The position numbers were made by a program, and so were the translations under genes. Under the pieces are notes generated by a model. It worked only from the letters and a program-made list of their open reading frames with translations, made no database searches and was not told where the DNA came from. Below are positions 2-48,596 of a stretch of DNA of 48,596 nucleotides, piece after piece; positions within the stretch are counted from its first letter, which is position 1; every line of letters starts with the position of its first letter. This stretch comes from Candidatus Omnitrophota bacterium (GTDB lineage: Bacteria > Omnitrophota > Gorgyraeia > Zapsychrales > Fredricksoniimonadaceae): positions 73,721 to 122,316 of the forward strand of contig JABDGZ010000001.1 in NCBI GenBank assembly GCA_013285735.1, in the 5' to 3' direction.

Positions 2-3000
2 ATTTTGCAGGATGCAAAAGCCAACGGCAGAGGAACACCCATTCTTGATGCAAGTGGGAATCAGATACCTCTGATGGATGATCATGGCATGCAAAAAACA
101 GAGATAGATCCAACCAGATATGCAAATTTAAAGTATAGCAGTGATGCCGTGTTAAAGGACGGATATTCCTTAGCAGCCATGGGCGGGGATACATCAGTAC
201 AGAGTTTGTATACGACAACAGTGAATCAACAAGTTGGAGCTCTTAATAAGGAAACACGTGATGTGGATGTAGCAGCCGTGAGCATGTCGATGGGAGCCAA
301 TGGTGTAATGAATCCAATGTTAGCCGGACATATCGATGTGCATACGGTTGGAGGGGATATAAATCCAGGGTATGTGATGAGGGATGGGACATTAGATGCA
401 ACGAAGTTAATGTACAAGATGAATAATGGGAAGCTTGATCAAAGCAAATTTGAAGCAGCTACATGGGCAGCATTGATTGATGCAGGGTACATTAATGATA
501 AGGGAGAGATCCAGGACAAGTTTAATAATGTAACAAATGCTGCAGGTCTGGATTTTGATGAAGACAAGGATATTAAGTTTGGTTTTAATGAATTTGCCGA
601 CAAGCATAAGACTGAAATTTACAATGGAATTCTGCAGGATGCAAAAGCCAATGGTAGAGGAACGCCGTTGGTGGATGCAAGCGGCAATCAGATACCTCTG
701 ATGGATGAACATGGCATGCAGAGAACAGAGATAGATCCAGCCAAGTATGCAAATTTAATGTACAGCAGTGATGCGGTGTTAAGTGACGGGTATAAATTAG
801 CAGCCATGGGTGGAGATACATCAGTACAAAGCTTATACACTACCTTAGTTCATCAAAATGTAGGAGCTAATAATAAGGAAACAAAGGATATGGATGTGGC
901 AGCCGTGAGCATGTCCATGGGAGCAAATGGTGTCATGAATCCAATGTTAGCCGGGCACATCGATGTGTATACGGTAGGAGGAGATATAAATCCAGGGTAT
1001 GTAATGAGGGATGGGACACTAGATGCGACGAAGCTGATGTATAAGATGAATAACGGGAAGCTTTCGAAAGGCGACTTTGAAGAAGCTACATGGGCAGCAT
1101 TGATTACTGCGGGGTACATTGACAAACAGGGTAACATTCTAGACAAGTTTAATAACGTAACAAATGCTGCAGGTCTGGACTTTGATGAAAACAATCAGGT
1201 TACGTTTGGTTTTAATGTCTTTGCAGATAAGCATAAGAATGACATTTACAATGGGATTCTGCAAAGGGCAATTGGCAGGGGAACAGCTCTGGATGCAAGT
1301 GGAAATCCAATACCTCTGATGGATGAACATGGCATGCAGAGAACAGAGATAGATCCGACCAAGTATGCAAATCTTATGTACAGCAGTGATGCCGTGTTAA
1401 AGGACGGGTATTCCTTAGCAGCGATGGGCGGAGATACTTCAGTACAAAGCTTATACACTACCTTAGTTCATCAAAATGTGGGCCAGAATAATAAGGACAC
1501 AAAAGATGTCGATGTAGCCGCCGTAAGCATGTCGATGGGGCCGAATGGTGTCATGAATCCGATGTTAGCCGGACATATCGATGTACATACGGTTGGAGGA
1601 GACATCAATCCAGGGTATGTGATGAGGGATGGGACATTAGATGCGACGAAGCTGATGTATAAGTTGAATAATGGAAAACTTGATCATAGCAAATTTGAAG
1701 CTGCTACATGGGCAGCATTGATTGATGCAGGGTACATTAATGATAAGGGAGAGATCCAGGACAAGTTTAATAACGTAACAAATGCTGCGGGTCTGGATTT
1801 TGATGAAGACAAGGATATTAAGTTTGGTTTTAATGAATTTGCCGACAAGCATAAGAATGACATTTACAACGGAATTCTGCAGGATGCAAAAGTCAATGGT
1901 AGAGGAACACCAGTTCTGGATGCAGATAATAATCCAATACCTCTTCTAGATGCAAACGGCGTACAGAGAATGGAGATTGATCCGAAAAAATATGCGAATT
2001 TAATGTATAGCAGTGATGCCGTGTTAAAGGATGGATATTCCTTAGCAGCCTTAGGCGGCGATACCTCAGTGCAGAGTTTGTATACAGTTCCTATCTACCA
2101 GAGAATTGCAGCCAATAGCAAGGAGACAAAGGAAATGGATGTGGCTGCCGTGAGTATGTCCATGGGAGCCAATGGTACGATGACCCCCATGTTAGCTGGA
2201 CACATCGACGTAAATACGTTTGGAGGGAACATCAATCCTGGATATGTCACATGGGATGGAAAAGAATTCGCCACGAAGTTTAAGACCGAAAATGGAACAC
2301 TCTCCCAAGGTGTACTAAAAGGATTAAACGCGGCCACACTCAAGGCCTTGATAGACCACGGATACATTGATGGCCATGGCGCCATCCTGGACGCATTTAA
2401 TAGTGTTGATGGTGCTCAGAATCTACAATTAGGCTCTTCATTTAAACCCAATCATAAAGACCAAATTTATAACATTCTGCAAAGCGCTGATGGAAGAGGC
2501 ACACCCATCCCCGGCGAATATCAAATGGATTTGAACAGATATGTGAATCTGGTGTATAGCAGTGACGCTGTGTTAGCGGGTGGGGACAGGTTAGCGGCCA
2601 TGGGTGGGGATAATGCGGTGCAGAGTTTGTACACCGTTCCTGTGCATCAACAAATTGCAGCCAACAGCAAGGAAACAAGGCAGGTAGATGTGGCTGCGGT
2701 GAGCATGTCCATGGGGCCAAACGGTACGATGGCCCCTATGTTAGCCGGACATATTGATGTTTTACAAGGTCAAGGCGGAGATGTTACTGGAGGGTATGTC
2801 ACCTGGAACGGGAAATTATTTGCTACGCAACTTAAAACTGAGAATGGGACACTTTCAAAAGGTGTATTAAAAGGATTAAATCCTGCCACACTCAAGGCCT
2901 TGATCGCTGCTGGGTACATTGATCCGGGTGGTAAAATTCTAGACGCATTCAATAGTGTTAATGGCTCCCAGAATTTGAATCTGGATTCTTCAAAATTTGA

Positions 3001-10300: not shown

Positions 10301-13300
10301 TTTAAGGGAGGATGGGCTGCGAAGGTAGGTGTAGAAGTTGCTGAAGTTGCGGACGCAACTGCTACTACTGGAGCATTGGTAACTGGTGTTCAAGATGCTG
10401 ATGCTGTTTCAAAACTTGTATTGTTAGGAAGAGCAGCCTCTGCAGCGACCTTATCTGGCGGTATCTGGGCAGTGGTTGGTGGTGTAGCAGCAAAAGCAAA
10501 TGGCGGAGATTATCAGGATGTTCTTGTCTCAGCCAGAGATGGGGCACAGAATGCTGTGTTAATGAATTTTGGTATGGCAAGTTTAGGTAATTTGGTCAGG
10601 GGTGTCAGTCCAGTTGTAGCAAAGGCCGCAACAGCTGGAAACCCAGTGGCGCAAATCTTGGTTGGTTCAGGTCAATTTGCAGCAGAAAATCCTTGGTTAA
10701 CAATGGGATTGACTGGAGCTGGTTTGAATACTGCCCGAGGCTATATTGCTGCAAATTATGATGGCCGGCAGTATGGATGGAATGACTTTTTGATAGATGC
10801 AAGCATCGGCGGCGCTCTTGGAGCTGTTGCTGGAGGGCTGAAGATGGGCTTTAAAGTTCAAGCTCCCAAGTTAGATGTTGTTGAAGAGCAATTTGTAAAT
10901 GGAGCCAAGGTAACAAGCCAGAGCCAGATAGCATCTATTTTTGGCAGAGGAAATACAGTAAACACTTGGTGGAATGTAAGTAGTTTTTCAACAATCAGCG
11001 TCCTGGGCGGCCTAGCTGATAGATATAGGAATAATGAGAATCTTATCTCAACGCGGATTTTGGGAGATTTGGCTTTAGGTGCATTAGGCGGCGCTGCATT
11101 TACCTACCTGCCGCGACTGGCCAATGTTGGGATTTTTGGAGAAGAAGCTGTGACCGGAGGCAGCACGCCTCCTAAAATACCAGAATTTTCATTAGGAAGA
11201 ACTGCTGCATTTACAGGGATTGGGTTCGCAAGCGGCTTTGGACTTTCTTTCTTAGATCCGGATTTAAATAGGAAATCTTTTGCTGATACATGGCAAACCA
11301 GAGTATTTGGCTATGGCGGCGCTGGCGCTGCAATCGGAGCCTTAGCAGGATCAAGGGTTTTAGCAACAGCCTATACCCCGCAAGGGCTAGAAGTCACGAT
11401 AGAGGATGCGATTGGAAGAGGAGCATTGAAAGTAGGTTTAGGTACAGTCCTCGGTGGAGCCGGAGGCTATGCTCTTTCATTTACAAATCCTGATTTGGCT
11501 GGGCAAGCATGGGATAGCTCTGCTCGTAAAAGTTATTTAGGATATGGCTTATTAGCAGGAGCTTTGTTGAGCGGCAATTCTGTATTGCAAGGAACAAAAG
11601 GATTTCGTCAATGGGCCCTCGGCGGCAAGCCTTCTATAGGCGGTCTTGCCGGTATAGGCAGAGATCCATATATGTTTACGAGGCTATCTGTTGCAGGGGC
11701 ATTGGACTTTGCGGCGATTATGCCGGCCTGGAGCATGGTGCAAGTCCCTGTTGATGCGATGATTGAAGGTGCCAGAAGGACCATTTTCCCGGGATCAATA
11801 ACAGACCTTGATAGAACGAGAAAAGATTTAAATGGCAATATTACTCATTTGGATGCAAATGGCAATGAAGTGCTTAATGTTTGGAACACGCCTGGTAGTA
11901 AAGATGGTAAAAGATTGCCTGGTATTTGGGAAATGGCCAATAACGAAGCTTTTCATGATAAAAACGGAAATTCTGATCTACCTACCTTTCTAGGACTATT
12001 GGCAAGTGCTGCAAACGGGGCCAAGATGGGTCTTGCATTAGGTCCTCTAATGGGAGTGCTCCAAGCGCCAATGTCAGCTTTTACACAGAAAGAATTGGCA
12101 TCTGAGGGCGGTGCATTCGCGACATTAAGCCACAGCATGCCAGGGACGATTTTCCAATTAAGCGGGGCAAAGGCTGTAGCGCAACAGATTCTGTTAAGTT
12201 CTCCAGACATCGTGGGAGCATACCGGGAGCAGGCACAATTGACATGGGATACAGATCAATTAAAGAACAATGATTATATATGGGATCCTCTGAGAGGCCC
12301 TAAGCAAAGCAGCAACCCATTATTAGAAGCACAAGAGAATGAATTTATTAATGGTAAAATAGAAAGTTTATCTGCTGAAGATGCCGGACACATCGCCTTT
12401 ATAAGCCTTTTCTTAAAGCCAGCACCAGCACCGGTGTTGGATGCTTCTATGCTAGCGGGGCTAACAAAGATGACAAATGATCTACAGGAAGCACAAGGTC
12501 AATTGGATGAGGCACAACAGCAAGTTCCACCGACAACAGGCACAGGGGCGACGCCAACATTGGGGGCATTTGATAATGCCCATGAAGGCAAATCAGAGAC
12601 AGAAATACAAGCAGGGCATGAACGGATTCTTGCATTAGCAGAAACGGGTGTAAAGGATGAGGAAAATACTGGTACTGCAGACCATGAACTTCGAGTGTAT
12701 CAAGTCGATCAATTTGTGCAAGGTCCTGATGGGAAGCCGCTACTTGTTGATGGGGAACCGCAGCTGCAGGTGCCCAGTGGTGCAGAATTCACTACATTTG
12801 ATGAGGATGGTAAAACAGTTACGGTTATTATCCACGATGGAACAAACCCTCTTGCACTGGCACATGATATTGAGGAATCAACGAACGTCAATCCGGAGTT
12901 AGCGACAATTAAACAGATCTACCAAGGTCGAGATTTGAATACTTTGTCTCTTGAAGAAATACAGAAAGCAATTCCCGATGCAGATGCGGCGAGAGTGAAG
13001 ACATATTTTGACACATTCCAAAGCGGTAAAACCTCAGCCCATGATGTTACGGTGGCATTAGGGTTTGGTGAAGGTAAGCCAGCAGAGACGACAGAGCAAG
13101 CACCGACGACAACTGCTCATAATACATTTGTGCCTCCGGCGACAACAGAAGTTGTTGTCTCACCGGAAGTCGTTGAATCTCCTGTTTCTGACCAATCCGT
13201 AGATGCTTCTAACTTGCCTCCATCAGCAGAAGACTCTGAATTTGATACAGCAACAGGGCCGAAGCTAGATGATCAAGTTGATCTTAGCGACGAAAAACCT

Positions 13301-16300
13301 GTCGTGGTAATAACCCCTTCATCAGAACAAGGGCAGTCTGGAAATCCAAAGGAAACCGCTGAGCAGCGAGCAGCAAAAATTGCCGATTTAAAAGCAAAAG
13401 TAGACGGATTAAAAGTAGATATGGCCAAGGAAGTGGATAGATTGCTAAGAGAGAGTCCAGCGTATGCGCATTATATTGGTGATTTAGCTGGAGATTTAAG
13501 AAGTCGACAGAATGATACAGCGGCAAAGATTATTACCCGTCAAATGCGTGATACACAAAGAGATTTTATGGAAAAGGGCAATGCTCATGGAGCAGAACAA
13601 GTATACAAGGGACGTATGAATGCGGTGGCGCAAAGAGCAAGAGCAATGGGAGCCGCAGAAGTAACCCGCTCACCGGACAAATTCGAAAAATATTACAATT
13701 TAGCGATCCGACTTGCGCCAGAGAAGAAAGCTGAATTCAGGAAGAAGCAAAGCATTGATATACTTCAACCAAACTTAACTCCCCAGAGCAAAGAATATGC
13801 TAATCGTGATGAATCAATAGCCCGTTTCTTGAAAATCCTAGGGGAAGAAAAGGACACGGACTTATATAATAAGACAGTAAAGAATGTTGAGGCTTTCAAA
13901 AGATTGGAAGCGAAACTTATAGAATACCACGATCCTAAGTCAACAGGGGATCTCACAAAACAAATCATTGAGCTTTTTTCTGACAAGGGAATTCCTAAAG
14001 AAGTCCTGGAAGCTTTTTATGGTGTCATGGTGAACCATGCTCAAACGATGTTTCTGGGAGATCAGTTTAAGTCGAGCAAAAATATGTTTGATTTTATCCG
14101 CCAAGCAATGCCGGATTTAAACCATGCAACCGATCGTTATGAATATGCCGTTAGCACGGCTAAAGCATTCTTTGTACCACTTAATGTCGATGCCTCAAGC
14201 GGTACAAATGACGAAGTTCAACAAGCAAATCAAAATAGAATGAAGGAATTCAATGATGCCCGCGCCAGGAATCCAGCAAGGATTAAAGAATTGGAAAAGT
14301 CCATTCAAAAAAGTTTGGGAGACGCAGCGGCTCGCATTATTGAAAAAGGACAGACAAGGCTTGCCCAGAATAAACTGGCAGAGGACATCTTAAATCCTTT
14401 GTTAAGGTCAGAGATCGCCAAAGATTCTAAAGAACAGCTGAAAAAGCAAGCTGAAAATGCCTTAAGAGAAGCCTTGAGTGCAAATCCTGAATTTAGATTT
14501 TCAGATGCCCATCTGGAGGCCTATTTCCAACGTATCAATGTCCTTATTCCTAATGATAAGGTAAATATAGAACGTATCAATGTCGGCGATGGCTTATTAA
14601 GCATTATTGATAACGTAAGAGCTGGAACAAAAAATACGGAGTTTCAAGGAAAGCTCAGTGCCCTGAGAGATCACGTAATACCTGAAATCTTACGGGAACA
14701 ACTTTCCCAATGGGCTAAAACATTGGACGAAAGCAAGACTAAAAACGCAGGTGATAAGGCTTTAACAAGCGATTTGACGGATTTGGAATTCGAGAAGTTT
14801 ACAAAAATGGTTGATGAGGGGTTAGATGCTCTTAATTCAAGAGAATCGTTTAGCTGGACAGATATTAGGAAAATGATTGAAATCAAAGCCCAGGCAGGGC
14901 GCATAGCTTTTGAGCTAGGATCACAGGCGTTTAAGGGTAGGAATTTTGATAAAGCAGATCAGGCCTTTGCCTTGTCAGATGAAATGACTCCCAGTTTTGA
15001 AACAAAATACAGTCGGGCAGTTGTAGCATTTGTTGCCGGGGATCTTAATAAAGCTTTTGAATTTTTGTCGACTGCTGAATCGGTGGCTGAAGGTAGAAAA
15101 GGAGGCATCACTAGTGCCGAGCGCGCATTAATTGATAATTTGTTTACAGAAATTGCTGCAGAAGAGGTTTCTCCAATGGCGGCATATAATAATGTTCAAA
15201 GGATGACGGATACGCAAATAAACACTGCGCTCAGGCTTGTCAATCAAACGCTGAGTACAAAAGACATAGCCATAGACCATCCTACTTTAGGACGCGTGAT
15301 CATTGTCCAGCGTACCAAGGATCTTTTAAGTCCATTTGGCGGTGGTGTGGCCTATATCCGTGGGGATGGGACTCTTGTTATTGCACATGACGGCAGCGGC
15401 ACCCTGGGCCATGAAGTTGCTGAAGTCTTGGCACAAAGGTGGAGAACGGCCCAGGCGGCCAATGAAACAGGGAAAATTATAGATAAAAGTAATCCCCAAG
15501 TCCAGGCAGAACGGCAGGCCAAGGCGAATTTATACAGACAGTTACGTGCGGATCAAAAGGCAAATGGTCAAAAAGATAATGCTCAAATTAAATCTGCGGG
15601 TGAGGGAAAACTTGAACCGCATGACATGGTGGTTCATCTAGGTTATGGTGAAGGATTGCCTGTTGATGATGCCACCCTGGCAAAATTAGATGCAAGCACC
15701 TCTTCCCTGCGCGGACCGCCTGAAGAATTAAAATTTGTAGCTGCAGCAGGTGCTGGCCGCGTGGTTGTTACTTCCCCCAATCCATTTGATATATTCGAAC
15801 AAAGAACTGATAGCAACGGCAAGAAGCGCCAAGCCAATAGTTTTCTCTGGAGCGAGGATAATCAAAAGCAACGCGCCGTGGAAATTTTTACACAACGTCA
15901 AGTACCATCCGGACGCATTGAAGATATCCAGAAAGATACTAACAATTTATTCAATAGAGCCTTTGCAGCAGTTGCGAAAGACACGACAATTCGTGAATTT
16001 ATCCCAAGAGTTAATGAACACGGGGATATATCAGGTTTGATGGAAGAAATAGTTCGGAGAGTTAAAGAATCACCAGAATTCTTAACAGATCCAGAACTGC
16101 GAGAGGAACTTAAAAATCAAGTAGCTGTATTCATAGCCATATCTATTAATATGAGAATTTCAGGTGCAGAAAATCAATTCTTAGATATAGCTAAAGACGG
16201 TGAAGTTAAGTTTAAGGACGATTTTGGAGAGAAAGGCAATAAACGAAATGATGGATTGACCAAACTTCAGTTAGCTGCTGGGTATGCAGCATCTGAAGCT

Positions 16301-19300
16301 ATGTTGAATGCATTAGGCGACGGTACCAAGGCCGCAGAAGCCTATGAACTCGCTGCTGCTGCAGGTAAAACTACTGTATTTTCACCGCTGTCCGTTCTTG
16401 TTATGCGGATCTCTCCGGAAATTGAAGTAAAAAATTCCAAGGGCAAAACGATACCGGTTAAAACCCTGCAGTTGGTTTCAAATGAGGATAATGCTAAAGC
16501 TATTGAAGATCATCTTGCAAGTATAGGGCTAGGAAAATTTGTGAAAAGGATTAAATCTGGTGAAGATACGCAAGCAAATGTAGTCAATATCATGACCTTT
16601 GATGAATTTAAGACCAAGGAATTAAATAATTATTTTGACGATCGTGATCATCAAGCGTTTATTGATGAGTTTGACGCGGCCATGTTGAGTTCTTTGATTT
16701 ATCGCGGTGGCCCGTCTAAAGCTGAAATGCTATTAAAAACTTTGTATACCCCTGGGCAACGTTTGGAGGCGATGAACTCTTTAAAAAGTGTGGTCAAGAT
16801 TCGCTCGGGAATGATTGATCTGATGAAAGATGAGCTTGATGGAAAACTAACAAATGAGAATTACACAGCGTTTATAGGCGATGCTTTGAAGGCAGATGGG
16901 GAAACAAATAAAAGCATGCGAGGGTTTATCCGTGATGGAATCATAACAAGAAGTGATGTGGCAGAATTTGCCCGAGCCACAGGTCGCAGCATACAGGATC
17001 TGAAAGAAAAAGGATATATTAAAGTTGTTTCAGGAGAATTGAATGGCGAAGGTCGTTATAGTGTAGATTTAGGAAAGATTCGTGCTGAAATACTAAGGAG
17101 TAGTTCCGGCGCAAGTACTGATGCACTCGTAAAAGCGCTTAAGACTATTGAACAAAAAGCCCAGGAAGGCGATAAATCTAGCTTGGAAATTGCTGTGCGT
17201 AAAATGATACGTGGTGAGCTTTTAACAATGCCGGAGTTCAAGGGCAAGGGTGAAGATTTGGTTGAAAAAGCAGTGGATGATTACATCCATGCCAATATAA
17301 CGTCTATCCAGCGGGTATTTTTAGGGGAAGATAGTCCGATTACGTATGATGAAGCAAAGTTTAAGTATAGCATCAATGGTAAATATGCTGAGCGAGGAGG
17401 AACAAAGATTGCTGAAGGATCAGAAACAGTTTTCAGTCGCGATAAAGAATCTCCGGTGAATCCCATGGGTGAAATCACCTTGCTTTCAAATCCAGCGATA
17501 GAAAAAGCAGGTGGATTTGATAAATTGTCTGCAGAAGATCAAGAATTGGTTTTGCAGCATTTCCTCGACGCACGGACCAATGATACGACAGGGGCCATTT
17601 CCTTTGCCCGCGGTCTAACCAAAATGCGTAATTTAGTGGGATATTCAGCAACTCTCTCGGCAATAAAGAATCAATTAGAAACAATGGACATTGAAACCCG
17701 GGTATTTGGTACAACCATGGGATTACATTCATTTTTTGCGGGCAAGGATGGTGTGCGTGAACCAATCAGTCTTTATTTACGCGCTTCTGCAGGCGGTGAT
17801 GTGGGGATTGCAAAGATGCTAGTTGACCATATGGTTGATGCTTTAAATGTCAGGACTGGTGAAAAACGATGGGATACCGAAAAGAGTATTTGGATTAATA
17901 GTTATGGAGAAGGAAGGCAAGATGCCCTTGTACGGGAAGCTCTAACAAGAATTCAAACCATAAGTGAAGCAGATGGTAAGGAGCTAGCAGAAAAACTTAC
18001 AAGTCTTTATAAAGCTATTGAAACTGCGGATAGGAACCGTGATCAAGCCAGGACAAACAGGTTAGAGGCCCTCGCAAAGGGAGATACAGATTTAGCAGCA
18101 CAGTTAGATGGTGTAGCAAAAGACAATAAAACTTTATCAGAACAGGCAGAACAGGAATTGAAAAATACCCTTAAAAAGTATTCAGGGGACATGGTTGTGC
18201 TGATAGACAGCACCCTTGGGACAGAAGATCTTAATAAGGGTGAGGTTAAGGCAGAAGTCATTGATGGCAAGGTTTATTTTAGAGCTAATCGTGATACCGT
18301 TATGGGAAATAAAAATTCTATTCTAACCCAGCGTGCTTTAGAAAATAAAGACAAGACCATTGTCGTAGGCTCAGCTCACGAAGCTTTGTCCATTCCTGAT
18401 GCTGGTGAAAATCATTTGTGGATGATTTTTGGAGACATGGCAGAAGCGGCCCGGGACATTCAAGCCTTCCAGCGTGGGGCTTCAACAGAACAAGGTGCTG
18501 GCCGTCGTATGCGCATGTCCGTTGATTGGGTGGTTACACCTGAAATGCTCAAGAGTATTACGGACCGTAAAAATTTGGAAGAAGTGATGAATGATGGGGC
18601 GATCAAGAAACTTCAGGCGGAAAGAGGAAGTATTAATAAGCAAGTATTGGATTGGCGCAAACAATTGGAGAATGATAATACTTTATCAGGCCTCGATCGC
18701 TATCAAATAGAACAAAATATTTCGCTTTGGGAAAAAGAGTCGGAAAGAATAGGTAAAGACATAGACGCTCTCGAAGCGCCAATCCGCAACAGGGTTGAAA
18801 ACATTGCTTTGGAGTTGGAAAGGAATATTAACACAGGAGGCATTGTCCAAATCATGAAAGAAGGAAGCAATGCTGCTGACCAATCCCTGGAGGGAGCGAT
18901 AGGACAAACGTATGAGGCTTATCGTAAACTAACAGGTGCGGCAGATGCGCGCTGGATTAATAGCACAGGCATGGGTTATGTAACAAGACGAACCTCCAAT
19001 GGCAATGGGATAGAAGTTATTGTTGGTGTAAAGGGCGATAATGCACCGATTGAAGATGCTGAAAAGCTTTTTACCGTGGCCGTCCGAGGTCCAATAAAAA
19101 CACCGTATGGTGTTATTCAACAGGGTTATGCGCAGGGTATATTTAATAATGAATCAGTACCGATATTCCAGCTGCCTAATTTTAATCCCAGTAACCTTGC
19201 AGAGTCCTTGAAACCTCTTGTAGAAAAAACCCTGCCAGCAGCATACTACATGGTTCCTATTATGGGAGATAATTCACAACGAGCTTCCTGGAAAAGGGCT

Positions 19301-25300: not shown

Positions 25301-28300
25301 CTTGCCCGTGGGGATGATCGAAAATTGGCCTATGGCGTTGATCGCAGCATGCTTATAGTCTGGAAACAATATAGGCATGATACGACACCCGAATTTGTGG
25401 ACACCATTGGATCTGCCTTACAAGCGGAAATGGGAGGCCAATCACCGAATTCCTTGCCTCAAATAGCACCAGCCAATTTTGCTCCGTTACCTGTCCTTGT
25501 TATACCAAGATGGGATTTAGTTATGGCGCAGGGTGATCAGAGCCGTGTTGCCGAAATAGATGAAGCTCAGATTCCCGGGGCAGTCGTACCAGACGCAACA
25601 AGCCCGGCAGTGTCTAGTACTTCTGTCTCTCCATTGCCAACGGATAGCGGAACAGAAGTTCCTTCACCTGTGCAAGTGGCACTTGCTACGGCTCCGATAA
25701 AGATTGCCTCACCTGTAGCACCCACCACAGGACCTGGGGCATTTGGAGACGATGATAGGGATACATTTGTAGGCGTTGTACACGAGATGGCAGCTGCGCC
25801 AGTTACTCCGTCAGTGACGCAGGAAAGTTTCCCACTCGCTGCCCCGCAAGACGCTGCCTTGTTGGTCGGCGGCCCAGCAGGCGATGTGATGAGGAAAATG
25901 TATGGTATCCCGGCGGGAGTAGATGTGAAGGCTAGAGCAAAACCTCAGTTTGATTTTATTCAGGACATGCAAGAGGGTATAGCATTTCTTGAAAGCCAAG
26001 ATGTATTTAGGTACAAGCAACCCGTTGTTGTCATTGGCGGCACAGGCGCTGGAAAGAGTACCTTAGGAGCCTTTTTATTACAACAGCTCAGGGGCAGAAA
26101 ATTAATGTCCTTGATCCATAATGAATCGGCATTTCAACAGAACTTCCTTGATTTGAGAGAACAGGCAGAAGGACTCAAATTAAATGTTGAATCGTATAGA
26201 ACAACCGGCAATCCTAAGAAAGACGTGGATTCCATTATTGCGATGTATAAAAAAGGAGCACATATTGTTGTTGTCCTGGATATCCATGAAAAATCCTTAG
26301 TCGCTGCAGCCTTGAGTGATACTAAGTTGATGGCTAAATTGAGGGCAGAAGACGGCCTTGGATGCAATGGTGTTTTTTATGATTCAGAATTCATGAACAA
26401 AACACCGTTGAATGCAGCAGGCAAGAATAATAAACGGGTCTCCCAGAAAAATATCAAGGGGATTCGTAAAATCGTTAGGGATATTCAAGAAGTATTGACA
26501 GAGGCAGGTGGTGGAAGATTAGAAGACGCTGTTGAGAACTATACAAACACTCCTACCTCAAGAGGTAATGAGGACGTCTTTGCACCGCATCTTAAATACC
26601 TGGCCTTTAATTTGCTCCAACGGCTAGATAGATACAAGGACACGCAGAGCCTTGAAGAAATCCGGGGTAAAAAAGGCGGCAAAGAAGACATTGCTTATTT
26701 GCAAGCCTATATCACGGCTGTGGCTAATTTCCGTACGCATCGCGCCAGCAACCCCATTGCCAGGAAGGGCGCAGAATTGCAGAGCCCCAGCGGCGGGGTC
26801 AGTCCTGGTGTGCGTCCGCAGGATGATTTAATTGCCATTGCCAATAGTCTTGTTGGAGATTATCTCAAAAAACAACCAGACTCTTTGCGTCAAAAAGAAA
26901 AGACGGATATTAATAAAATACTTTCGCAACATGGCGGTGTTCAGGTTGCGGATATTGATGTGATCCGTTTCTTCAAACTGCTTGGCTGGGACATTGTTCT
27001 AGCCACCGGAAGTATCGATGACAGCGTTAAAGATGTTTTAGAGTATGGTTATGGAGCAAAGATCATTAATTACGCTGGAGCGATGGGGCCCAGGAATGAG
27101 GCAATAGCTGAAAGCAGATTTTATTCACATACTCCTTCCCATGCGGTGCTAGAAGAGCACTATATCCCAGTTGTTTCCAACGAAGCTAATATGAATGCTG
27201 TAGTTGCTGGTATTCTTAGAAGAGTTTCTTCGGGCACTGGCAATGTTTTAGTCGGCAGTGTTTTGGGCGGCGATAATTACAGCCTGGCTTCTTTTGACAG
27301 GGTGGTGCAACGCTTCTTTAAGGGAATAAAAGATACGCCTGATTGGGGCAAGCAACCGGTCATTATTTTTGAGAACGATGGCCGGATCATATTGGTTAAT
27401 GATCCCAAGAAAGGCCTGCCTAAGCCAGGACAGGAAGTTCGTATTACCAAGGAATATTACGATCATCTTACAGATGCTAATCGTCGATCGGGTGCAAAAT
27501 ATTTAGTTCTATTGGGCCCTGCTAATAGCCATGCTATTTCTCTACCTGCCATTGCTGGTGATTTCATGACAGTTCTTGCTGATGATAAGTCCACTTCCCA
27601 TGGTATTGAACAGTTCTTTGATCGTGTCCGCGGTCTGGATGTAATTGAGAGAGGCAAAGATGGAAGGCCTCTTAAAGAGACAAGGGGAAGAAAAAGCGGC
27701 AGGAATAAGACGGACACAAAAGCTGATCAACATGTTGAAAAAGAATTGGTAGTTTTCTTGAGCGATAAAGTTATTCCGTACATTCACGACTATTACGCAT
27801 ATGTTGACTGGACAAGAAAGAATCTTAAAGAACGCTCACGTGTCGAAATGCTTGAGATGAGAGCTAATTTTATTGAACAGTTTAAACAATTTGTTATCCG
27901 TGAATTGATGGCCAGGGATGGGCGCTTCCTGACGAAAAAAGCATTAGCAGCACTTGCCGTAAGATTTGCCGAAGATGACACGTGGATGCGCCATCAAAAT
28001 ATTGAAGGCCGTATCTTGACCGTTGAAGAATATTTCAAGGAATCATTAAACCGCATGAGGGCAAGTCTCAGAGCTGCTTTTATTATAGATGGGAAAGATG
28101 GAAAGCCTGATGAAAGAACACCGTTGTATGAGAAGCTTAATGACGAGGCAAAGGCATACGTCGATGACCACATAGCTAATTTACCAGAATTAGACAAGTT
28201 TGAATTTACACCTGGAGCACTACACAGAGCACTTGTTGATATAGAAACGCCAGAAGATGTGATCAATGCCATTAAGGCAAGCAATCATGACAGTTTACCG

Positions 28301-34300: not shown

Positions 34301-37300
34301 GAAACCATGAGCTATTCCCTCAATAGCCCCAAGGTTAAGTATGGCGCTAATTATATTGACCCAACAGCTGAAAAAGGTGTGCTCCAATGGTTATTGGATA
34401 CGCATACAGGCGATCTTACCCCTATGCGCGACGGCAATATTCCAGAGACACATGATGTACGGTATTTGATTTACCCTGACAATGCCAGCAGTTCTACTGC
34501 TTCAACACCGACGACTACGGCTCCAGGTGCTGATCAAAACGGTGGTGATAAAGATCCTTATTTCAGAGGGAAGAGTGTTCATAGTATCGATGATATGCCC
34601 GCCCAAGTAAGAAGCTTTATTAATATGCTGCTTAAATCCAGAGGATCCTTGTCATCGTTTAAGGGTGTGGGTGCAAGCGCAGAGCCAATCACCGTCACCT
34701 TGCCAACGACAGCAGACGGTAAAATTGTTATCGCCGGAGCAGAACTTAAGGCCATCGGTCTTAAGGGAGATAAAGGATTAGGTACCAAAATCTTATTTGG
34801 CCAAAAGCCAATCGCGGTTGATCTTCCTGCAGGAACTAGCGATGCTGTCATCGCTGATAAAATTGCCGCAGAGTTCCCAACACTTGGCGATCTCTTTGAT
34901 AAGGTCGGAACCACAACAAATATCCGTCCAGGTTCTGATCCCGATACCCTGATCGTCGCGACACCTTACGGGGACAAGAAATTAAATCGCAAAGACATGG
35001 TCATGCAAGATGCTAGACACTATGTCATTGGAACATTTAATCCAGGTAGCAAGGCAATAGAAAATCGTCTGAAAGGTTTGCGGGCTGCTGCCCTGGTTGG
35101 AGGCAAAACACCGTGGTCACCTGAGGAGATCTTTAATCATATTTATGTTATTAAGGATGTTTTTGCAAGCTTTAAGGATGGCGTTGAAATCTTCTATCAC
35201 GGCAAGGTGGATGGCCCTGTCATAGAATTCCATTCCTTGAAACCGGATACCGATCCTAATGGCCCAACAGAATTAGATGTACTTTCACAGACCTACTTCT
35301 TCTATGTAAGTGCTAAGGACGGCAGGGTGGTAGCTTTAAGCGCTAAAGATGCCTGGGGCTTGTATTTAAATAATTATCAACCCAAGGGCACGATCCCGTC
35401 AATCCTGTCAATCCCAACAGATTTAGGAAACGGCGATGTTGAGAATGTATTGTACGTGGTCGAAAATGGAAAGATGCAGAAACTCGCTCTTTCACAAGAG
35501 TACATCAACAATAAATACAAATTCTACAATGACCCGAGTATGGGTGTTGATACAAGCGAAATAGGCAAACATTTCGTCGTTATCTTAAAGAGCTATTTGG
35601 GATTAACTGATCAAGGTGTCTTTGTCGATGCTTCAAGATTGCCTGAGTTCTTCAATGGGAACAAAAATGTTAAGCAAATCATCGTGGTTGATGAAGACGG
35701 AAAGACAACAGCCTATGTCTATGGTCAAAAAGGCAAGCTGGCAGACGCTGAGAATGAAACAGTTAAAGACCACAAGATTTATAAATTGAATGATTTTGCA
35801 CAAGGCAATCGCAATTCAGTTGCCTGGAATGAAATACTTAAAACGATTACCCGTGGTGATAAGACCTTTGAACTTATCGCAAGGCACAATGCCTTAACCG
35901 GTAAGGTCGAACGGATCATGCTTCTTAATATGACAAAGGGTGACAAACATTTTGGAGAAGCAGAAAATCTCTATAAGTTTGAGAAGCCAATACCGGTCGG
36001 TAATTTCAAGAATATCATTGGCACCATTGCCTTACCAAACCCCAATGATATTACCCATTCAAAGGTATATTACTATAGTGATACCGACGTCATCGTTAAC
36101 ATCGATGGAACTCCTTATGAAGCAAACATCAGTGACAAGCCTGTTGCCTTGGCTCATACCCTTGATGTGATTACATTTAACGGCGGCTTGATCACCCTTA
36201 CCGAACTTGCTCCTGTTGATGGCCCGGCACGCATAATCGGTACGGATGAAGAGGGTAAGGAAGTATTGAATTTCACACCATTTTTAAATCCTGTACAAGT
36301 TGGTGCTGAAAAAGCAATAGGAGTAGTCTCCTACAAGGATGCCAAGGATCCCACAAAGGCTCATTTAAATTACTATAATGCTAAACATCAGATTTTAGGT
36401 CATTACGGTGACGATGTTCCTGTGAGAAATATGCCTTACAGGGGTATCACTATCCCTATCCGCAAGACCGTTCCAGACAATGGTCCTGTCCGTTTATATG
36501 GTCTTGATAAGAAGGGGAATGAAGTATTGCATCGCCGTTCTTTAGATAAACCCGAAACAATTGGTAAAGGGAAAAATAAAATAACAGTGGTTGCAAAGAT
36601 TAGCATTCAAGATCCTAAGAACAGGGTCAAGGCAAATGTGTATAACGAGAATAAAAAAGGCGATTGGCTTAGCAAGAACAATCTTAAGTTCGTAGATGGA
36701 AAGAATGATCATCCGGTCAACACCTATGATGATCTTGGCCGTTCAATGTATAGAAATATTCCACTCGCCGTGGTTAGGGACAATGATGCTGATCGCACCT
36801 TCGGTGCAAACCCGCAAGGCCTGGAAGCAGGCACCTTCTATTTCTTTACCAAAAATAACCCCAATTATCATCGTTTCGGAGGCAGGGTCGTGGGTGCGGT
36901 TTTATTCGTTAATGAAGATAAAAGCGCCGATGGTTATTTCTTTGACAGGGCAGTCAACAAAACCACCCACGAAGTCACCTTCAATATCCTTAACCGTGAC
37001 GGCAGCTCTGCTGCAAACGGCCACGAGCTTCCTGTAATTCATATCAATAATACAGTTGCCTTTGCCGTTCCAGCTGACCATCGCCTAGGCGGCATACCAC
37101 AGTTCGGGACAGGCGAAGATATGGGTGTAGGGTTGCACTTCCTTAAGTATCATTTTGGTACGTACAAAGGCAAAGAAAATGTTCTATTAACAAGTGATGA
37201 CCAACCTATTGGCTATCCTAACGATGATTACAACACACCTATTACCTACCTTGGCCGCAATATCGCACCAATGTGGAAGGTTCATAATACCGCAACTGGC

Positions 37301-40300
37301 ATGTTGGACTTCATTTCAAATACGCCAAATTCGAATGCCATTGGCGAAAAGGTACATGTAGGTGCACTCGTAGATGCTCCTCGTGGGAACCAAGAACATG
37401 TGTTGCAGACACCAGACCACAAGTACGCTGTTGGTTATCCTAACAATGATTACAATACGCCGATAACTTATAATAATCAAAATATCGGACCGATGTGGAA
37501 GGTCCATAATACCGCAACTGGCATGTTGGACTTCATTTCAAATACGCCAAATTCGAATGCCATTGGCGAAAAGGTACATGTAGGTGCACTCGTAGATGCT
37601 CCTCGTGGGAACCAAGAACATGTGTTGCAGACACCAGACCACAAGTACGCTGTTGGTTATCCTAACAATGATTACAATACGCCGATAACTTATAATAATC
37701 AAAATATCGGACCGATGTGGAAGGTCCATAATACCGCAACTGGCATGTTGGACTTCATTTCAAATACGCCAAATTCGAATGCCATTGGCGAAAAGGTACA
37801 TGTAGGTGCACTCGTAGATGCTCCTCGTGGGAACCAAGAACATGTGTTGCAGACACCAGACCACAAGTACGCTGTTGGTTATCCTAACAATAATTACGAT
37901 ACGCCGATAACCTATCAGGGGCATGATATCAAACCTATGTTTAAGCTTCCGGGTAGCAATGTAATAGATTTTGACACCGAAGCCCAAGCCTTCAACCTCT
38001 TCCTTCAAGGCAAGATTCGCTATGGTAATGATTATGTTATTGATCCACAGACGCATATGCCCAAACTGAATAATAAGGGCAAGAAGATGAGGATCTTGGT
38101 TAATGATTATGGCAATGTGGGCGTGCCTAAGGGTTTCAACGGATTCAGCAATACTTCAAGTCTCTTGGATATGTATACGGTCATAAGCAAGGTCAATGGC
38201 CAAGATAGATACGTCTTTATTCGTCCTAATCAATTGATTAATTACATGACAAGGGCTAATTATTCCAAGATTGTCAAGTTTGATGCTGATGGCGTGGTCA
38301 TTGCCTACATAGATTTACATCCTGTCGATGGCGGGAAACCTATTATTAAGGAATCTAACGGCCATGAAGGTTTCAATACCTATCCTATTGATCCTAAGAC
38401 CGGCCATATTGACAGGGTACGTACAGTAGGCCATGTAGCCATAGTAAAAACCTTGGATGTCCCGTATCCCTATCAAAGAATACATAAGCCAATGAAGGTT
38501 GATGTGCATGTAACTTATGACGTCAATAATCACCCCACCAAAGCTCTTGGTATCATTAAAGAATCATTTGAAAAGAATCCCCAAGGGGAAGATAGTATGA
38601 AGGGTGTTGAATATATTGAATTCTACCCCACCGTTGATCCAGCTACCGGACGGGTGTCGGGTGGAAAGGCTATTGTTGGAGAGAAAAACACAGGACGCCT
38701 GCGGATTGTACGTCCTTTTGGTCCAAATTGGGAAATTGATTGGAATGATAGTCACATCATTGAGAGGGTTGCCTATAATAATCCTGTAACACCTAGAATA
38801 AATATTTCAGCCCCCAGCCATTCTTTAGTTGCCATGAATGACCTTCCCAAATCTGATCCATCAGGATTATGGGGCTTGTTCCTGTCCTTAGGTAGCATTG
38901 TTGTGGTGGGTAAAGGTAAAACAGCTAAAGAATTAAAAGAAGAGGCTGAAAAAGCTGAACAAGAGGCAAGAGAGTTAAGAGAAAAAACATCCCGATTAGT
39001 AGCGTCAGCCGCAAAAATACATGAAGAAGCAGAAAAAGCAGCAAAAGAAATGGAAGAAAAAGCGGTTGAGGGCACGAAGGAAGAAAAAGAAGCAGCAAAA
39101 GCGGCAGCAACTCAATTGAGAGAACTGGCAAAATTGGCCAGCGAAGAAAAAGTCGCTGCCGCAGCGGAAATGAAACAAAAAGCTATTGAAGCAAGAACAA
39201 AAGCAAACGTAGCTATAAAGGAAGCAAGATCAGCAGAATTAAAAGAAAAAGCAGGTGAAATCCAAAAGAAGGTATCAGCACGGGCCAGAACAGTAAAGAT
39301 AGTAATAGGTATTGTACTGGCAGTGGTCATAGCGCTTGTTCTAAGATTCGGTCATTTTAATACAAAGGCAGTTAAATCTGCACCAGGCAATAAGCCCGCA
39401 GCGGCTCAACAGGCAGCAGCATCGACGACATCAGCCAAGGTTGTGCCAACAGCTGAAGCTTCATCGAGAAACGCCAATGATGCCACGACCTTGATCGCTG
39501 GCAAACCATCTCGCGGTACGACATGGGATCATGAAGTGGTTACACCGGAGATGGTGCCATACATTCCTGGCGAAGATTCGTACATCTATAAGCCATTTTC
39601 TTTTGAAATAGCTAAAAAGATAGATGAAGTTGGCAGGTTAAAGATTGCGAAAATAGGAATTGGTTTTGACGATCCTTCCTGGGGCATGGATCATGCGTTT
39701 TGGGGCGAGGCTGTTCCTACTGTTGGCAGTGAATATCGTTTCTCTTTGATGGATCCTGATTTCGACCAGAAGATTGCCAGTTACGCCACCAAATTAAATG
39801 CTATTTTCCACGGCAAGGTCAAGATTATCTTTGTCTTGATGAACGAAGCCAATCTTGATGGAAATTATAATGTGTGGAGAACCAACTGGAATAAAAGTCA
39901 TACAACACAGGCTCCTGATTTATTCACCTTGCTTAAAAATAGGGCCGACGAAATCCGCGCTCTAAATTTAGGCAGCAATATCTTTGTGGGAACAGTCTTA
40001 GGCGATACCGGTGCAAGACTTTCTGACGACTTAGCCCATGCTTTTACAGCACATCTTGATTATGTCGGTATTAATTATTATCGTCATAACGATGATTTGA
40101 AACCAGCTACGCCAACTACCTTGCGTCCTGGAATTATCGCAGAAGCGACCACTAAAGCAGGCGGTGTTCATATACCGGTTTTCATTTCCGAAGCAGGAGA
40201 ACCTTCTTTTGATCCTTCAGTAGCAAAAAATTCTCCAGCTGGTGAAGAGACCCAGAAAAACGCCGATCTTGCTGAGCTAGCTAATGCCGATAAAATGGGA

Positions 40301-43300
40301 TTGGCCATCGATATAATGTCAGGGTTTGTTGACAATTACAACAAAGCACAGATCATAACAAATGGTAAAACAAATCCCAAGGAAGGCTATTGGGGATTTG
40401 TTGAACCAACTGGTAAAACAAAAGTGGCATTGGATGCAGTTAAAAAAGCACTCGGGGATAACTCCGAAACACCAGCATTCCTACCCATGGGGGATCAGAC
40501 AGCAACGGCACCAGCAGATCAAACAGCACCCCAAGAACAAGTTTCCTTAAGCAACGACACCATCGCAGCCTTGCAATTGACCGGAGACCCCTTCACTCTT
40601 CAACCTTCCCTTATCGTCAATGGCAGAGAAGGTAAGACGACTATCGTGGATCCCAATGTTGCGGGTGGCGTGGGCGGGACAATAGAACCCCTGCCAGAAA
40701 GCACAGAAAACAAGAAGTTTTACCTCATTGAACGCCATATGAGTGACCAGGTAAGCACGACAGTTCCTTCAGACATAACCTTATTAGTACAAAAAGAAAA
40801 TCATGTCTATTATTTAGTTGGCATTGTAAAAAATGCTTACATTGATATCAATACGCTTAACGAGAATGATCTGATTGCAAAAATCATTGCTTGCAATCCT
40901 GTCGTGTTGAAGGATCAGGAACCACTTATCCGTAAGTATGTAGAGACTGCTCTTAAAGAAATTACCACTGATCCAACCAAAGTGACCTTTACCATGTCGC
41001 ACGTTGAATCTGTCAATGATGGGACACTTGTATTCTTCCGTATGAATGGGGATACTTTAGCACGCATCATTGCCTTTGCTTCCAGCAGTAACAATCAAGT
41101 GGCTAAGGTGACCATTAATGGTGATTGGCAAAATTCCAAGGATAGCCATGTTGCCTATGAATTTTCTCCCCTCAAAGACAGCAATTCTCACTACTTGCAA
41201 TATAAATGGGTAACAACTCCCGGAGAGTTTACTTTAGCCAATATAATTGCGACATTTATACATGATGGCACTGAGATAAAGCCATTGATGAAACAATTAG
41301 CATTTGTTCATCAAGATTCCTTTGTTGAGATCAAGCGCTTTGTGAATCAGGACGGGACATGGGTGCCGAGTCTGCTTACCAGATACCAAGGCAAGCAAGA
41401 TCCGCTGGCCCGTGATTATATCAAACTCGATTACAACACCCCTCGTTTCATTAAATACCGCATTGATGTTGCTAATCATAAACTTACAGGAGCTCCGGTT
41501 GGCTTATCTACTGGCGAAGTTTCCGAGCAGCTTAGCAGCGGCCGTGTCCTGCGCCAAACCGAATACCAGAGCTCAGATCCTCAAACACATGAGCATACTT
41601 ATACAGTTCCTTATGAATTCCGTGATGGCCAGGAACTCAAGCACCGTACAACAACCATTACCTACAATGATGAATCGGGCATAGTCTCAGAATTTTATCA
41701 GAATGAACACTTTAAACTATACAATCTCGATGGTGTGGAATTATATAAGACAAAGGTAGGAGGCCATCAGGAAAGCAGGTACAGTTCTTTAACAAACACC
41801 TTCTCCCAAGTTAACGGTCATCAATTTATTTTTATCCACGAAATTCCTGTCTCGAAAACACTCGACGCAGCGTTGACAAACAGAATGTACATTGACGGAA
41901 AATTGGCCTACGAAGAAAAAATTAATGACCGTGGTTTTATCCCAGTATTTAAATCAGCTTTACCGGATTTTCTTGTCAACGACACCTTTATCCATGGCGA
42001 CCCGAATGAACGGACGGATAATAGTGAAAAATGGGGTAATTCAGCACCAGGTATCCTGTGGAGATATTTAAAGCATTTACACGGTGAGAAATCTTACTAT
42101 GACCTTCTTTCTCAGATGCAGCAAGAAAAGGGAAATCTGGTTGTTGATGGATCCGCCATGAGTATGCATATCAATGGCAGGGATTATGCTTTTAACGATG
42201 CGCCGGTGTTCTTTGACTGGTCAATTTGGCTTCGGGAAAACGCAGTAGTTTTATTGGGCCTGCTTGCCGCGGTAGGAGCAGCTGTTATCTGTCTGATCGC
42301 AAAAGGCTATTTTAATCGTGCACGTATCGGCAACATTAACTATAACTCATTAGCAGTCTTAGAAGAGCTTGTTGGTGATAAGACCTTGGCGCTGAAGATC
42401 CTCGGCATAGTTTTCGTGTATGGACCGATCATTATTCAGAAGAATTTAGATCCAAAGACAGATGATGGCCGGGAGCACATTATGGGGTATTTACAAGCAA
42501 GAGGCCTCAACGAAAATGAAGCTAAGCTATTGCTGGAGCGTTACATGGCTGGAAAAATAAAAATGGAAAATCTGCATATTAATCCGAAAGTTTTACTTTA
42601 TGTCGATGCAAAATACCTAGTGATTGATGATGAAAACCACGATAAGCTTAAGGCGCAAGTGGATATACTTGCTGATCTAGGCCTTCCAGCAGCAATAGTG
42701 ATTAAGGCTTTAATGAACCCTGCCAATGCAATGTGTATAACCGATACAGAACTTGAAGATGCAAGAACAAAGTATGAAGTGTCAAGCCTTGGGCGGAAAA
42801 TTGGCAATGCATTGCGATGGTGGCTGATGGCCAAGTATCTTATAGCCAAGAGTGAAAAGAAATTATTGGATAAAATAGCAGGTAGTGATGAAAAACTGCA
42901 CAGGGAGGAGATTTTGGGGTGGTTAAATTCGATGGTACAAACTCCGCAAGTCAGGGTTTTTATAAAAATCATTGAACTTTATGGTACACAGTTTACGTCG
43001 GAAAATAATTTATTGTTGGGAGAATTGATCCTGTTAGCAAGAAATCGTACGAGTTTCATAAAGTTTGTTAGCAAGGCGCTTAAGGAAATAGTATTTCGTA
43101 CTATTTTTGAAAGAATTATAGAAGAAGGTATCGGGGTTAAGTTCCATGATACGTCACGGAAACCGGATTCAACTTATGAAAGACTTCTTAATAGTTTCTT
43201 TGCGATCCATCGCAGCATATTTGATTATCCTGAAATGTTGGACCAATTAAAAGAAAAGTCTGAATGTTCAGAATTCGATATTACATTCAGGCCCTACCAG

Positions 43301-46300
43301 ATGATGGCAACTGTTCAGGGCGATAGTTTAGTGATGCAGTTATTGATAAAATTACTGGAGATGAATGCCTCGCAGACCTTTGAGAAAGACTTGGGCGGAG
43401 GGATTACCTTGGGTGGAGGTAATTTGATCCGGCCGTATGTAGTATATTTGGCCAGACATATTAGAGAAGAATTAAATCTGTGTCCGGACAACAGGGCTTC
43501 GCCAGAAGATCTGCGTAAGTTCATGAGAGCAGCCAATCAGTTTAACCGCAACACCCTGGTGGATGGACGTGCAAAATTCCAGGCAATTACTGAACGCTTC
43601 CCGTGGATAAAAACCAATGAAAAAGTCGCCCAGCTTTTCATTGATCAGGATAGCTTTAATTTATTTAGCTATCTTCCCGGCACCCTTTTTGAAGCTGTTT
43701 TAGCCCATCTAGATGAAGAAAAGAAATTTGGCGGATTTGAGATTAAATTTGATGCTGAAGGGTTGCCCGTATTAAAGAATGAAAGGGAATTCGTGATCGC
43801 ATTGAATGATTATTACACCGGGATTAGGAACGGGAAAAATCCTAAAGCAGTAGATTGCTTGTTCACAGCCTTGCAGCATTTATCCACAGAATTATTAGAA
43901 TCAAAGCATCCAGACGCAGCCAATTTACAAAGAAACTCCAGACTTATCACAGGCCTATGGTATCTGTTATGGGAAAATTATTTTGGACTAGTTACCAAGC
44001 AGTTAGAATTCTGGGGGATTGAAGACAAAGGGAACAATACGAAGGTATTTAATTTTATTAAGAAGGTATTTCCTTATCTGTTCCTCCTAGTCATCGGAGG
44101 GCAAATCCTCTTTGGAATACCAGTGTTTGGTCTTTCATTAGCTGTGTACACCATGGTAGGCACCTTAGCACCGGGCATCTATCTCTTATTGAAGGGTAAA
44201 TACAAAATCCCGAGCCAGAAAAAAATGTGGATCAGTATCTGGGTTGTATTTGCTGTGATTTACGCAGGGGTCATACCCTATTTCCTTTTTGGCAGTGTTG
44301 CTTTGATAATAATTAATGGAAATTTCTGGATAACCCTTGGGCTTTTCTTGCTAACAGCATGGCCAACCTTGATTTCAATTTTCCAACTGCATCTGGGTGT
44401 TGTCAGTTATATAGAATTACGGAATGAGTTATGGTCAGATACAGTCCGCTCATTCACCGGATTGAGTTCAATCAATCCATTCCCTACACGGTGGACAGCT
44501 GCCATATCCGTTCCAGCTATCGCTTTTGTAGCAATCTACGTCATCAGCATGTGCTATACCATCACATTGACCCCGGTCATTCTCGCCGTCATAGGGGCAG
44601 TTTGGGTCTTGGCCATTATCTTTGCACCAAGTAATCGTGCAGCCTTTAAGGAAAAATGGGTTGGACGCATGATTGATGAAGTAGAAGGTGTTGAGAATAC
44701 CTATGGCCCCTTGCTTGAAAACGGCGAAACTTTCAGGGAATATTTGGTCAGGGTTATTACCGCGCTATACAGGTCAGGTCTTTTAAGCGGTACAGAAAAA
44801 GACCTTTGGATCAAGGCCTTAAACGGTGATCTCAAGAATGGTCGCTTTGTTTGGCCAAAAGCAAAAGACGGCCAACGGAAACTATACGATGTGATTTATG
44901 CAGCAGGGCATTCGAAAACATCCCGTGACGTTTTAGTGATGTTGGAGCCAACATCATCCCATAGTCAGGCTGCCTGGGAAGTCTTTAGTTTCATGCCTGT
45001 TACTTCCATGTTCCGGGGAACATTTAACAGGAATCCCTTAACAGGCGCCCAAACAACGCTTTTGGGATATGTCGCCCGCAACCAGCCTATAGAATGGCAA
45101 AACGCCATGGATAAGATTAAAGAGAAATTTAGAGAGCATAAGGGCAATACGCTCACCCAGGAGGATAGGAAATTTCTTAATATCTTGGAGAACCTCTATG
45201 AAAACGATGATTTGATTGACCATATTTTTGTGGATCATGCAGGAGTCTTTAAGAATGCCGGCAGCTTGAGAAGAGATGTTGTTAATATCATGTTGAGATT
45301 TTTAAATGAACAGCGCGCCTCTCAAGGACCGGTTGCAGAATCCATGGCAGCAGAAAATTTTGAGTATCATTTATTAACCAGCATGGAAGTAGGGGACATT
45401 GAATATCGTCAGGCCATAACAGCCTTGATGGCCTGTGGAAAATATACGTCTGTGACAGATGCACACATTGAATTAAGTAAGTTAAAAATAACAGGGCCAG
45501 AGACTTTAAGCTTCCTTAACGGATTTATTGAAGAAAAGGACAGGGTTAGATTGGTAATGCATTTCGTGAAGAATTACAAGGAATACGAAGAATTTATCGA
45601 TACCAAATTACGTAACATCATTCACATGGAACCAATTTGGCGAGCAAATAAATTCAATGCTGACGGGACAATTAAAGAATTATCAAGCGTGACTGCATTA
45701 GTGAAGATTTTGAAAACTACGGTGAGAGCCAGGGCCCAACAAGATGGAAATCTAGTCATGGTTGGTATGATAGACACCTTTCTTGGGTTGAAATCAATAA
45801 ATGATACTGTAGGTAATACCATTGAAGGATGGGCAGATCAGTTTGACACAGATCGTCGCAACAATGAAACACTTGCTATATTAATCTTAAATTATGCCCA
45901 GTCAATATTGACCGAAAATGAGTTCGGTGGTCCGAATGGTTTGAAAGATCAATTAGACAAGACCGAACAGGTGGCAGAATACATCCTGGTCTTGAAGAAA
46001 AACCATGTTATTTATTCCCTCTATGACGTGAGCCAGGATGTGGTCATTGCGAATAATAAAAATGGTGGGATGGCGGGGAATCTTTGGTTATTCTACGAAA
46101 ATTCAATGAATCTCGACGCTTTAGTCAGAACACCTGTAGGGATACATGTGTGGCGCCCATCGGTCGCGACCTTGATGGCGCGTGATGTCAGGATTGTTGT
46201 TGTCAATCCTATGATGCGTGTTTGGGGTGCTAGCAATACTAAAACATGGGCAGGAACAGCTGATTACGGGCTATCTGTAGAGGTTTGGACAGCAGATTTC

Positions 46301-48595: not shown

Positions 48596-48596
48596 G
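48164..48596 (+). repeat. 126-bp tandem repeat encoding an alanine-rich six-heptad coiled coil
   Basis: Units begin at 48164, 48290, 48416 and 48542, the last cut by the window edge. Each encodes 42 residues, exactly six heptads: ATASTALDNARAGVTTAEAN then AEAARLALEAANAGVTAAQ and ATA. Copies differ at only a few bases. Ala is written almost only as GCA and Arg as AGA, unlike the mixed usage upstream, which points to recent homogenisation. An Ala-rich coiled coil of this type would form a long rod. The array probably continues downstream. Confidence 0.95.

Follow-up and report, generated by a model that had tools for sequence, protein, structure and literature searches.

A giant gene of an Omnitrophota genome begins with a conserved C39-like head and lies downstream of a Tad locus

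Giant genes are already known in the Omnitrophota. In Velamenicoccus archaeovorus LiM a giant open reading frame (ORF) of 39,678 aa has been described together with a Tad locus at 12382-29832, peptides of the giant ORF are up 3-fold in attached cells, and a coat role has been proposed for the product (excerpts of PMC10066038). The same excerpts describe the giants of one class as mostly poorly conserved, with functions that are hard to assess, and take Tad and the giant ORFs as two separate indications of a symbiotic lifestyle. Proteins of up to 85,800 aa are attributed to a preprint by West-Roberts in the consulted part of PMC12057145. Tad pili have been shown to kill prey on contact in Myxococcus (excerpts of PMC12075869). 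The giants of Omnitrophota are hard to study because they have little sequence in common.

The gene described here is a further member of this group. The window, i.e. the whole 48.6-kb stretch of DNA analysed (C1:73721-122316; window coordinates are C1 minus 73720), is the middle of one real giant gene of ~19,500 codons from an uncultured member of the Omnitrophota. A single ORF of >20 kb is a mark of the Omnitrophota giants, and here a single frame spans the 48.6 kb of the window and 58.5 kb of the scaffold. The first-pass annotation, made from the letters of the window, had linked the frame to the giant genes of Omnitrophota and had called it larger than almost any known bacterial coding sequence. 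The link holds, as the named genomes with the closest heads are Omnitrophota MAGs and three blocks lie in the same order as in the giant of genome G153, and so does the giant frame itself; the ranking was overstated, with frames of up to 45,037 codons in relatives and published lengths of 39,678 and 85,800 aa. Size alone is therefore not new. Reported open frames of relatives have 35,884, 39,687, 42,913 and 45,037 codons (the 39,687-codon one was inspected and is partly masked). As an observation in its own right, the 45,037-codon frame (G138:C9) carries two C39-like matches 83 kb apart.

The features of the gene and its surroundings are as follows.

C1:44866-64473, upstream of the window, same strand as the giant (tadB, tadC): Tad locus (Pfam and position)
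C1:65613-66530, upstream of the window, plus strand: conserved head, a hydrophobic helix and then a C39-like domain (alignment, Pfam, Foldseek)
Window 119..9289, plus strand: array of a ~95-aa repeat (HMM scan)
Window 26036..26059, plus strand: Walker-A-like motif (motif scan)
Window 37259..37915, plus strand: 222-bp repeat in three copies with 98% matches (tandem-repeat search)
Window 39362..40534, ~aa 15,940-16,260, plus strand: putative clan-A glycoside hydrolase-like domain (alignment, weak matches)
Window 41018..47182, plus strand: conserved tail that includes hydrophobic segments (two collinear blocks in the G153 giant; relatives; hydropathy)
Window 45026..47107, plus strand: best-conserved core of the tail, with no known family found (alignment, family and PDB searches)
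Window 48164..48596, plus strand: 126-bp alanine-rich repeat that enters the right scaffold gap (tandem-repeat search)

The closest described giant is that of G153, a single 1,974,201-bp contig in which a head frame runs from 29,823, just past tadC, for 39,687 codons including 40 kb of N. We infer that G153 is V. archaeovorus LiM, as the single contig, the position of the Tad locus and the position and length of the ORF agree with the description in excerpts of PMC10066038. The two giants share three collinear blocks, namely the head (28% identity), aa 16415-16759 (29%) and aa 16853-18469 (26%, E 5e-119), and both are low in cysteine and lie downstream of tadC (~1.0 kb here, ~0.24 kb in G153). 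However, the present giant is half as long, and there is no match between head and tail. With the other Omnitrophota giants, as described in excerpts of PMC10066038 and PMC12057145, it shares an ORF of >20 kb, hydrophobic segments and few annotated domains, whereas the published discoidin, laminin_G_3 and dockerin domains have no Pfam match in this giant at E 0.1. No description of the head or of its linkage to Tad was found in the titles, abstract openings and passages searched in PMC, and an earlier description may exist; nothing on C39 combined with Omnitrophota was found there either. The words 'peptidase' and 'operon' do not occur in PMC10066038, nor 'Tad' and 'C39' in PMC12057145.

Translated with code table 11, the +2 frame of the window (2..48595) contains 16,198 sense codons and no stops, while the five remaining frames have 513-1,479 stops apiece and a longest open run of 266 codons. 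Given the base composition of the window, the probability of so long a run without a stop is ~1e-459. An altered genetic code is not needed, since table 11 gives an open frame here and numerous stops in the other five. No Rfam family reaches threshold over the window, so that nothing points to an intron from a known family. The first-pass annotation had proposed one uninterrupted frame from base 2 that lacks both the start and the stop of its gene, is too long to be open by chance and, from repeat periods in multiples of three, is under selection; all of this was borne out, and extension to the scaffold, a check it had suggested, located both missing ends in the flanks. The giant starts at the ATG at C1:65496, the first start codon past the upstream stop and 8.2 kb upstream of the window, and ends with the TAA at C1:123996-123998, 1.7 kb downstream. 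On the scaffold the whole giant comprises 19,500 aa including 38 X (58.5 kb), of which the window holds the central 83% (aa 2743-18940).

The genome is a draft of 1.84 Mb in 69 contigs and is 71% complete. The window is one gap-free contig bounded by gaps in the scaffold of 100 N (C1:73621-73720) and 10 N (C1:122317-122326), which look like assembly graph breaks at repeats. At the left gap, 95 identical bases end the left contig and begin the window. The right gap falls inside the 126-bp repeat, which is read in the same frame on either side. The copy number of repeats at both junctions is therefore uncertain, so that 19,500 codons is a scaffold estimate.

The five tandem-repeat rows of the window have periods of 324, 156, 222, 63 and 126, all divisible by three. 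Eight copies of the N-terminal ~95-aa repeat give 28 pairs, and in each of the 28 the third codon position is the most divergent, which indicates that the frame is under selection. The dN/dS ratio was 0.05-0.35 in the 20 pairs where dS was computable, many with dS >1; in the other 8 of the 28, dS was saturated and the ratio not computable. An HMM of this repeat yielded 27 rows (one of them weak) across aa 2023-5838 of the giant, the first four upstream of the window, and no copies in the frames of 13 relatives. For this repeat AlphaFold gave a poor model (mean pLDDT 46).

The conserved head stretch covers ~aa 40-450, beginning with SRFxxWIR, followed by a hydrophobic run and then FxPxQxSWAFxYNP. 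The hydrophobic helix lies at aa 53-72 with the C39-like domain C-terminal to it, and positive residues before this first helix suggest that the following part would cross the inner membrane. Peptidase_C39, the sole Pfam family above cut-off across the giant, matches the head with 35 bits against a cut-off of 22, and it matches all 31 aligned heads at E 0.001 or better. The head carries an intact C39-type Cys-His-Asp triad (Cys170, His255, Asp271). Each position is kept in all 36 relatives of an alignment that holds 36 of the 40 head loci (the truncated L126, L127, L161 and L163 were left out), and in the 31-row alignment Cys and His are invariant and Asp is present in at least 90%. C39 peptidases have an oxyanion-hole Gln shortly before the catalytic Cys and cleave after a double-Gly leader. 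In the heads this Gln is found in one of 36 rows at Cys-6, and in none of 30 aligned rows at Cys-5.

A structure model of the head was obtained from the alignment of 36 relatives by folding the sequence of L125, which is 73% identical (mean pLDDT 82). In a Foldseek search against the PDB the best matches were PCAT transporters and C39 domains, with ComA domains lower; the C39 part alone was recognised, and the helix and the post-peptidase part were without match. The likeness to the PCAT/ComA C39 domains (PDB 6mpz, 4ry2, 3k8u) thus includes both the fold and the triad. Unlike in those proteins, the oxyanion Gln is absent, no ABC transporter family matches the N-terminal 2,708 residues of the giant, and the C39 domain here fronts a giant protein. 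The triad and the fold make the head a putative protease.

In a scan with peptide patterns, which distant relatives would escape, of one genome per species (84,980 species), 40 head loci were found, only in Omnitrophota. By record label 35 are Omnitrophota, Omnitrophica or Omnitrophus and three are Zapsychrus or Aceula, which are Omnitrophota; the remaining two, labelled Elusimicrobia and bacterium, belong to the same family (G008:C96) and the same order (G069:C18) as the present genome. A search with the N-terminal 2,708 residues gave a head match in 33 of 55 genomes, own included, and in 23 of the 28 with at least 90% completeness and at most 5% contamination. A head profile matched 114 of 237 genomes of a phylum sample, counting weaker matches, many of which cover the C39 part only. 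Of the 40 head frames, 38 are open to the end of the available DNA (21 of these for at least 3,300 codons), and two end in a stop, at 2,265 and 772 codons. The giants form a family marked by a common head, with the gene usually following tadB-tadC.

The Tad locus consists of CpaB/RcpC, a secretin with TonB_C, a TadZ-TadA-like fusion, pilin-like genes, tadB and tadC. Pfam matches to T2SSE, Secretin, RcpC and two T2SSF identify the gene set as Tad, while the pilin, TadE and TadG-like names come from sequence appearance and one Flp_Fap match below cut-off. Two details were seen in passing: the secretin (C1:45736-47454) ends in a TonB C-terminal domain, and the pilin-like genes at C1:51300-54224 include two near-identical copies, with a scaffold gap within the second at which the contig ends again have 95 identical bases. 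Between tadC and the giant lies a MazE/MazF-like toxin-antitoxin pair, named by eye (C1:64518-65089), and the interval contains 6 promoter-like sites, against 4.6 expected, of which one is a 12-of-12 match. The giant may therefore have a transcript separate from that of tadC.

The giant is linked to Tad genes well beyond this genome. Of the 40 head loci, 29 include 3 kb or more of upstream DNA, and 26 of these carry tadB and tadC there in the same orientation as the giant, with 250 to 3,471 bases between the end of tadC and the open frame of the giant. The exceptions are L127 and L129, with unrelated upstream genes, and L146, with a cluster that looks T2SS/T4P-like by eye. At the level of the class, 20 loci were hand-picked from 32 full-length head rows outside the order (31 genomes), and 19 had sufficient upstream DNA. 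In 17 of the 19 tadC is upstream on the same strand, in 16 tadB as well, at a tadC distance of <10 bases to ~9 kb, and the two loci without tadC have pilin-like genes upstream. Within the set of 55 genomes, own included, tadC is present in 37. Both tadC and head occur in 27 relatives, compared by hand: in 20 they are within a few kb on one contig, in five they are on different contigs with the head near a contig end, and in two (G012, G018) they are truly apart. Nine of the 55 genomes (completeness 80-93%) have tadC without a head match; the reverse, a head but no tadC match at 1e-30, was found in five. By genetic linkage, the giant is a candidate for a working component of the Tad apparatus.

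Beyond the repeats the body is long, and as far as aa 11,149 it contains a single hydrophobic stretch. No Pfam family exceeds its cut-off within the window, and NCBIfam gave no match on window 10502-39400. The Walker-A-like motif has no family match (Pfam AAA/ABC below cut-off only) and no PDB match; PDB searches with the Walker-A region, a region that looks helicase-like by eye and the tail core returned nothing credible. Towards the tail, the assignment of a clan-A glycoside hydrolase-like domain is weak: the score against Pfam Cellulase is 20 bits, under the cut-off of 23.5 and in one of seven members, and the PDB match, to a GH17 enzyme, is likewise weak (E 0.009). Clan A glycoside hydrolases (GH5/GH17) use an Asn-Glu and a second Glu as catalytic pair. 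The putative catalytic Glu codons are at window 39845 and 40190; Asn-Glu is present in all seven aligned sequences and the second Glu in six, the seventh being gapped there.

Hydropathy analysis gave 50 overlapping segments over the giant, 36 of them from aa 16,819 onward. The giant contains 20 cysteines in 19,500 residues (0.10%), compared with 1.12% for 44 further long frames on the scaffold, and the 14 frames of relatives contain 0.00-0.28%. This low cysteine along the giant and the frames of relatives fits export; it is no proof, as the Tad proteins tadB, tadC, CpaB and secretin are equally poor.

A query with the tail matched nine of the 81 genomes of the order, and one with a middle piece seven of the 81, own included in each. 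Two relatives share the tail on frames without N: one is a 79,596-bp contig that is a single open frame (G072:C10) and the other a frame of 30,644 codons (G062:C46). When blocks were compared in 13 relatives, at least two blocks matched in 10, always in the same order, and one block in three. In G024 and G013 the tail pieces form ORFs of their own, 5,164 and 4,966 codons long, each flanked by stops and beginning with a hydrophobic segment, and the head is on another long frame. Large blocks therefore appear to be gained, lost and exchanged among the giants. Some further observations were made by eye. The low-coordinate end of G072:C10 (L064) has the look of a glycogen-phosphorylase-type glycosyltransferase. 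Two secreted-looking proteins of the scaffold (C1:124122-126764, which has HEAT repeats, and C1:8695-13098) belong to a family with the N-terminus MGRDLLA[QE]DY..., which is common to the separate tail ORFs G024:C13 and G013:C52.

Together, these features make it reasonably probable that the gene encodes a functional exported giant with a C39 head and a hydrophobic tail, belonging to a Tad-linked family and with a role in cell contact or digestion. The N-terminal hydrophobic helix would export the product and place the C39-type papain-like domain beyond the inner membrane. A body of ~10,000 residues would follow, predicted to be mostly soluble and made up of repeats and fast-changing domains, and the chain would end in the tail rich in hydrophobic segments. 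The giant may contact, and perhaps digest, other cells that the Tad pilus brings within reach, and its C39 domain may act by trimming either the giant or a partner protein that is also exported.

More tentatively, and with somewhat less than even confidence, we propose for Omnitrophota a Tad-coupled giant-protein system in which the constant head ties a diverging body to the Tad machine and the protease processes the displayed giant. The Tad machine would export or display the giant on contact, processing by the protease would come next, and the body would be the exchangeable, target-facing part. The logic resembles that of the changeable Kil pilus tips of Myxococcus, with an unrelated protein here. 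Like Kil of Myxococcus xanthus, the present case combines a Tad apparatus with large variable surface proteins, in a predator there and in an organism with suspected predation here; the Kil tips are, however, pilin-fold minor pilins, and no pilin family matched in the giant (excerpts of PMC12075869).

Several other explanations have to be weighed against an exported, functional giant. The frame could be artificial, fused by misassembly from separate genes or repeat-collapsed contigs, and the two scaffold gaps within repeats, the 95-base identical overlap at the left one and a draft genome that is 71% complete would allow for this. However, the gap-free window by itself provides 16,198 codons, frames of 26,531 and 30,644 codons without N have the same tail in independent genomes, and block order is conserved among relatives, which together make misassembly very improbable. 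A real frame might still encode a polyprotein that the C39 domain or other proteases cut into working pieces, so that no chain of 19,500 residues persists. The conserved triad at the front of the chain is in keeping with this, as are the tail pieces of G024 and G013, which exist as separate ORFs (~5,000 codons) that each have a hydrophobic start, while the missing oxyanion Gln of the C39 domain speaks against it; on balance we regard a polyprotein as rather unlikely.

The giant could also be a passive coat or adhesin, i.e. a surface layer or attachment fibre without enzymatic action, as the repeat arrays, the low cysteine and the coat proposal for V. archaeovorus (excerpts of PMC10066038) would suggest. 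The intact C39 triad and the hydrolase-like domain, in which six of seven sequences have the two putative catalytic Glu, point instead to enzymatic action, and a purely passive role seems doubtful to us. As for the neighbourhood, the Tad linkage may be an old shared gene order that carries no functional meaning: every locus is from one phylum, some heads are away from tadBC and some tadC genes are without a head. Yet the linkage is kept in six further families of the class, even where head identity falls to ~28% (G153) and little relationship of the body can be recognised, and in G156 and G231 no more than 10 bases separate the end of the tadC frame from the open frame of the giant, so that we consider a meaningless gene order distinctly unlikely. 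A functional exported giant of a Tad-linked family remains the reading we prefer.

The combination of a constant head, a nameable active site and frequent Tad neighbours provides a handle for finding more giants. The head lets the starts of giants be recognised even in broken assemblies, and together with the Tad genes it allows tests of function in the enrichment culture with reported giant peptides. If the linkage is functional, Tad and giant ORFs, which have been reported separately, would become one system. The relatives of the head and its location next to Tad thus give a testable hint at what the giants of Omnitrophota do.
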